Shown here: positions 27,594 to 28,601 of the stretch, in pieces
Layout of the letters: each line of letters opens with the position of its first letter
Numbering within the stretch: the stretch's first letter is position 1
From: Desulfococcaceae bacterium
GTDB lineage: Bacteria > Desulfobacterota > Desulfobacteria > Desulfobacterales > Desulfosalsimonadaceae
Direction of reading: 5' to 3'
Length of the DNA: 64,000 nt
Assembly (NCBI GenBank): GCA_030145385.1
Contig: JAQYVU010000011.1
Coordinates: forward strand, 1-64,000
Program-made: the position numbers and the translations under genes
The notes under the pieces: model-generated
What the model saw: only the letters and a program-made list of their open reading frames with translations
Told to the model about the DNA's origin: nothing
Databases searched by the model: none

Positions 27594-27621
27594 AAGGCAA
27601 CACCCCGAAAGATGTTGCCTT
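27594..27621 (-). terminator. Rho-independent terminator of the HesB selenoprotein gene
   Basis: AAGGCAACA and TGTTGCCTT form a 9-bp stem around a 10-base loop. On the minus strand it is followed by TTTCTTTTTT, a good U-tract, 22 bases after the stop codon. Confidence 0.8.
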
Positions 27622-27643: not shown

Positions 27644-27958
27644 TTACCCGCAGGAACCGGAAGTGCCGCAGCTCGAACAGCCGCCACCCTCCATTTGCAG
27701 GTTTGAGTCAATCTGAAAACCGACACCTTTGAAATCTACCGTTATCGGTTGGGCCTGAGCAAGCAGATCCTTGTTGGCAATAAATTTAAATCCGTTAAAT
27801 TCAAACGCTTCATCCATATCATTCGGTTCATCCAGAACCAGTGCCAAAGAAGGGCCGCCTCAGCCGCTTTGGTTCAGGAAAAGCCGTATGGGCTTTACCT
27901 CTTTTTCTTTAAAAAACTCCGCAATCTGCTGTTGCGCCGTTTCAGTTACATTTAACAT
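27644..27958 (-). CDS. HesB/IscA-like selenoprotein (in-frame TGA read as selenocysteine)
   Basis: The gene starts at the ATG at 27958, which has GGAGG six bases upstream, and runs 104 residues to TAA at 27644 through one in-frame TGA at 27862-27860 (codon 33). The sequence around it reads IRLFLNQSG-U-GGPSLALVLDEP, the hallmark GUGGP site of the HesB-like selenoprotein family, where other members have Cys. The tail GGGCSSCGTSGSCG supplies further cysteines, as in A-type Fe-S carriers. Gene callers would report only the 67-residue part after the TGA. Frame conservation on both sides and the ribosome site argue for recoding, not decay. Probable role: Fe-S or redox carrier; true function of the family is unsettled. 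Confidence 0.9.
27825..27839 (-). promoter_or_regulatory. Candidate bacterial SECIS hairpin
   Basis: GGUUC-UGGAU-GAACC forms a perfect 5-bp stem with a 5-base loop, beginning 20 bases after the UGA. Distance, small loop and a G at the second loop position fit the loose bacterial SECIS rules. Extension of the stem downward is poor, so other foldings are possible. Confidence 0.45.
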
Positions 27959-28019
27959 GAGAACCTCCAGGGTATTTAAAATTAAAAATCAATGTTCTTA
28001 CAAAAGTAAATTTTAACGA

Positions 28020-28079: not shown

Positions 28080-28601
28080 TCAAATGGATTGAAGAAAATC
28101 TTTATAAATTCCAAGGTCTGATGCAGAAAAAAGAACAAAAAAAACTTTGAGTTTTCGCCCTGACTGTTTTAAAAAATCAGCGGTTACTGTTACCGCGATT
28201 TCACATGCTTTGTTCATCGGGTATCCGTAAACCCCGCAACTGATTGCAGGAAAAGCAATCGACGATAAATTGTTTTCATCGGCAAGGCTTAAACTGTTCC
28301 GGTAACAATTGGCCAGTAAAATCCTGTCTTCAGGACGTCCGCGGTATACCGGTCCAACGACGTGAATAACATACTTTGCCGGCAGATTGTACCCCTTGGT
28401 TATTTTCGCCTCTCCTGTTTGACATCCGTTAAGCCCCCGGCATTCTTCAAGCAACAGGGGACCTGCCGCACGATGTATAGCGCCGTCAACGCCCCCGCCT
28501 CCCAATAAAGTTTTATTGGCGGCATTTACAATCACATCCACATCCAACTGGGTAATGTCGCCGGCAATAGCTGCCATTGCATTCATTTGGTCAATTTTCA
28601 T
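28080..28601 (-). CDS. Macro domain protein, O-acetyl-ADP-ribose deacetylase-like
   Basis: Single macro domain of 173 residues that binds and probably hydrolyses ADP-ribose derivatives. The ligand-site motifs are [23 protein letters not shown] near residues 20-42, the Gly-rich turn that contacts the ribose, and [11 protein letters not shown] near residue 125. This is the MacroD/YmdB type. It lies upstream of the selenoprotein gene on the same strand, but the 121-base gap with its own promoter-like sequence suggests separate transcription. Confidence 0.93.

Follow-up and report, generated by a model that had tools for sequence, protein, structure and literature searches.

The minus strand of the 64,000-nucleotide stretch analysed here (the window) very probably carries, between positions 27958 and 27644, a selenoprotein gene of the IscA/HesB-Se family (NF038090); we put at about 96% the probability that SelB, Sec-tRNA-Sec and a hairpin in the message insert selenocysteine at codon 33, so that the product is an A-type protein of 104 residues. 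Selenoproteins of this family have been described before, and the gene adds a well-supported member to it without being new in kind. Its reading frame, the conservation of that frame, covariation in a SECIS hairpin and the presence of selA, selC and selD in the genome can be read from the sequence, from which we also infer that selenocysteine is actually inserted at codon 33.

A HesB-like reading frame containing TGA

The features of the locus are as follows.

27644..27958, minus strand: HesB/IscA-like gene, predicted selenoprotein of 104 residues with Sec at codon 33 (translation with TGA as U)
27860..27862, minus strand: UGA codon 33, putatively Sec
27825..27839, minus strand: core of the candidate SECIS hairpin, GGUUC-UGGAU-GAACC, with its loop at 27834-27830
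27963..27968, minus strand: Shine-Dalgarno sequence GGAGGT, 4 nt before the ATG (read directly)
27594..27621, minus strand: intrinsic terminator, 22 nt after the stop codon (12 bp stem and T-tract; folding z -5.3)

The frame runs from ATG to TAA with a single internal TGA, that of codon 33, and when this is translated as U the encoded protein begins MLNVTETAQQQIAEFFKEKEVKPIRLFLNQSGUGGPSLALVLDEPND...GGGCSSCGTSGSCG, the context of the codon being FLNQSGUGGPSLALVLDEP. Gene calling with table 11 recovers only a 67-residue fragment with a TTG start (27847-27644); an ordinary gene finder breaks the gene at codon 33, since the UGA there would be read as selenocysteine. Such a truncated call was anticipated by the original prediction, as were a good ribosome site upstream in the same frame, found as GGAGGT, membership of the HesB/IscA family and the placing of the TGA, within GUGGP, at a position where homologues have Cys or Sec; all four are borne out. 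Shine-Dalgarno-like sites also precede nearly all the orthologues.

Family membership is indicated by scores of 115 bits against the NCBIfam model NF038090 (IscA_HesB_Se; cut-off 85) and 35.1 bits against Pfam PF01521 (Fe-S_biosyn; gathering cut-off 26.3), and no other match to PF01521 was found in the 5.24 Mb source genome, which is 97% complete. The domain is related to that of TIGR01911 (HesB_rel_seleno), yet at 34.7 bits the protein lies under the cut-off of 66.35, and it scores far below the cut-offs of the IscA equivalog TIGR02011 (28.6 against 150.6 bits) and the SufA equivalog. The solved structures matched are those of Aquifex AQ_1857 (1nwb) and, weakly, Escherichia coli IscA (yfhF, 1r94). 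Codon 33 aligns with C35 of the latter, an established metal- or cluster-binding cysteine of IscA, and is TGT or TGC in the Cys homologues. The domain, the Cys-rich C-terminus (GGGCSSCG...CG) and the correspondence of position 33 to IscA C35 are thus shared with the A-type carriers IscA, SufA and ErpA, as represented by E. coli IscA and Aquifex 1nwb, whereas the protein would have Sec where these have Cys, and its gene lies outside any isc or suf operon. HesB-like selenoproteins were listed in 2006 for several Deltaproteobacteria, including Desulfovibrio, Syntrophobacter, Geobacter, Desulfuromonas and others (Zhang et al. 2006, PMC1794560). The present protein does not differ in kind from these or from NF038090, consisting of the same small IscA-type domain with a predicted Sec at the first conserved Cys.

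The gene order lon, prepilin peptidase, hesB, macro domain, ndk is common to most congeners. The macro-domain (ADP-ribose-type) gene, at positions 28080-28601 of the window, lies on the same strand as hesB and 121 bp upstream of it, a place it keeps in most congeners, and the strong terminator at 27594-27621 sits between hesB and the convergent prepilin peptidase gene. When the whole window was scanned for codon bias, no further convincing gene with an in-frame TGA emerged.

Conservation of the frame and of a SECIS-like hairpin

Sixty related genomes, the source genome among them, were searched for hesB; a match was found in 55, and in 52 of the genomes there was a copy whose frame is interrupted by one TGA and no more. 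As the same codon is also TGA in 27/27 aligned UGA orthologues, its presence in the frame is not attributable to chance. A frame-breaking change in close relatives on either side of the TGA, named beforehand as evidence that would count against the reading, was looked for in the genus: nine of the ten genus mates carry a UGA hesB and the frame is intact in all nine, the tenth, whose genome is 84% complete, having no match. Between close pairs, dN/dS is about 0.03-0.16 upstream of the TGA and 0.04-0.15 downstream, indicating strong purifying selection on both sides.

The hairpin begins 20 nt after the UGA. Four codons, +8 to +11 after the UGA (GTT CTG GAT GAA), make up its stem-loop and are invariant in 11 orthologues from the genus and family, even though synonymous change would be free. 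Across 48 UGA genes, 239 of 240 stem cells are paired; sliding the partners by 1-3 nt as a control leaves at most 125/240 paired, and the six Cys homologues, in which the hairpin is absent, pair in 10/30. The stem is preserved through coordinated codon pairs, namely Val GTT with Glu GAA, Ala GCT with Glu GAG and Gly GGT with Asp GAC. Its central pair is UA in 29 of the 48 genes, CG in 18 and GC in one, a split between UA and CG that largely follows kinship and therefore represents a few covariation events, not dozens.

Bacterial SECIS elements have been modelled as having a loop of 3-9 nt, a stem of 4-16 bp, a G in the first two loop positions, a spacing of 16-37 nt between UGA and loop and a minimum free energy of at most -7.5 kcal/mol (PMC13188914). 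With a 5 nt loop (UGGAU), a stem of 5-6 bp, G in second position and a spacing of 25 nt, the hesB hairpin is within all of the structural limits; the energy is -7.1 kcal/mol for the 21 nt hairpin alone, just short of the threshold, and -10.0 for the UGA with the following 45 nt. The hairpin thus fits most of the model. Folding stronger than that of shuffled sequences is limited to the short hairpin (z -4.1), the 48 nt segment formed by the UGA and the next 45 nt folding no better than dinucleotide shuffles (z -0.2) or synonymous-codon shuffles.

Selenocysteine machinery and other readings of the UGA

The expectation that the genome would encode selenocysteine machinery outside the window held for three of the genes: selA lies on contig C93 (611 bits); selC, the only one over the cut-off, on contig C31 (75 bits), with a UCA anticodon and the canonical G1:C72 and G73; and selD (318 bits) is split over two overlapping contigs, lying at the end of C68 and the start of C112. 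This selD is itself a selenoprotein gene, with an in-frame UGA in VRAAGUAAKLSPG (a GUAAK N-terminus). For selB, the 209-contig assembly contained no match over the cut-off to the full model and no SelB-wing_3 winged-helix domain, nor does the gene follow selA on contig C93. The matches returned by the search, which were rejected, were to EF-Tu, IF-2, TypA, LepA and other GTPases only.

Absence of selB or selC from the genome had been proposed as grounds for refutation; selC is present, and a gap in the assembly is the best explanation for the apparent absence of selB. This reading is favoured because nine of the ten congeners carry selB and because the position expected for it is bracketed by the ends of two contigs. 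In the relative G004, selB lies between tRNA-Arg/tRNA-His and a putative hemW-like gene (named from sequence resemblance), with one further gene in between; in the source genome contig C85 ends just beyond the matching tRNA-Arg, contig C33 ends within the hemW-like gene, and the assembly lacks the approximately 4.3 kb that holds selB between the equivalent points in G004. The right flank of the putative gap is a strong match to G004 (1.6 kb at 84%), the left only 206 bp containing the tRNA-Arg.

A tRNA-Cys of the selC* type, bearing a UCA anticodon and working with a SelB paralogue, could instead decode the UGA as cysteine, a reading to which we give very little credence. Mukai, in 2017, is said to have first described selC*/selB*. 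Such tRNA-Cys systems have been reported for Desulfobacterales (reviewed in PMC7609411), and comparable pairs are present in three genus mates (G008, contig C28; G001, contig C150; G007, contig C108), where both an additional selB (250-280 bits) and another tRNA-Sec-like gene with a UCA anticodon stand beside a Cys-coding hesB. The second-system tRNAs end in ...GCCCUCU-CCA, giving an apparent discriminator U73 as in tRNA-Cys, a match to the published systems. The Cys-coding hesB is damaged or truncated in one of the three genomes; rhodanese-like genes flank the pair in two, the third having one further off, and neither a UGA target gene nor a cysS* copy was evident nearby in the stretches read. 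This second pair was dropped as the decoder of the hesB UGA because it was not found in the source genome, its tRNA reads as U73 and the hesB next to it has TGC, not TGA. Against cysteine decoding there are, in addition, the canonical form of the source genome's selC, the lack of any match to selB* in that genome, and the occurrence of UGA hesB in many genomes where no selB* was found.

Less probable still is that the TGA is a true stop, produced by a nonsense mutation in a pseudogene or by a sequencing error: the missing selB would fit with this, but the TGA is identical in all UGA orthologues, selection is purifying downstream of it and the SECIS stem covaries. That UGA has been reassigned throughout the genome, for example to Trp, is the least credible reading, as UGA is an ordinary stop elsewhere (of 35 long ORFs in the window it terminates 11), and the aligned homologues carry Cys at this codon, never Trp.

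Proposed function and significance

In the favoured selenocysteine reading, SelB carrying Sec-tRNA-Sec would bind the hairpin downstream of the UGA and place selenocysteine at codon 33 of the A-type protein. IscA-type proteins bind iron or an Fe-S cluster through a set of cysteines; Sec33 would stand in for the first of these, with the C-terminal cysteines supplying the remaining ligands. For the selenolate of HesB-like selenoproteins we provisionally favour, by homology, an iron- or cluster-related role or a redox one. More tentatively, and with the odds somewhat against it, the Sec33 selenolate may directly coordinate iron or an Fe-S cluster, and this in the one IscA-type protein detected in the genome.

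Standard annotation loses or truncates the gene and would therefore miss the one A-type protein detected in the genome. The strict conservation of the SECIS element makes it a clean target for testing selenocysteine insertion in this group. If the selenolate does prove to be a ligand, these anaerobes would have selenium in place of sulfur at the centre of their A-type carrier.
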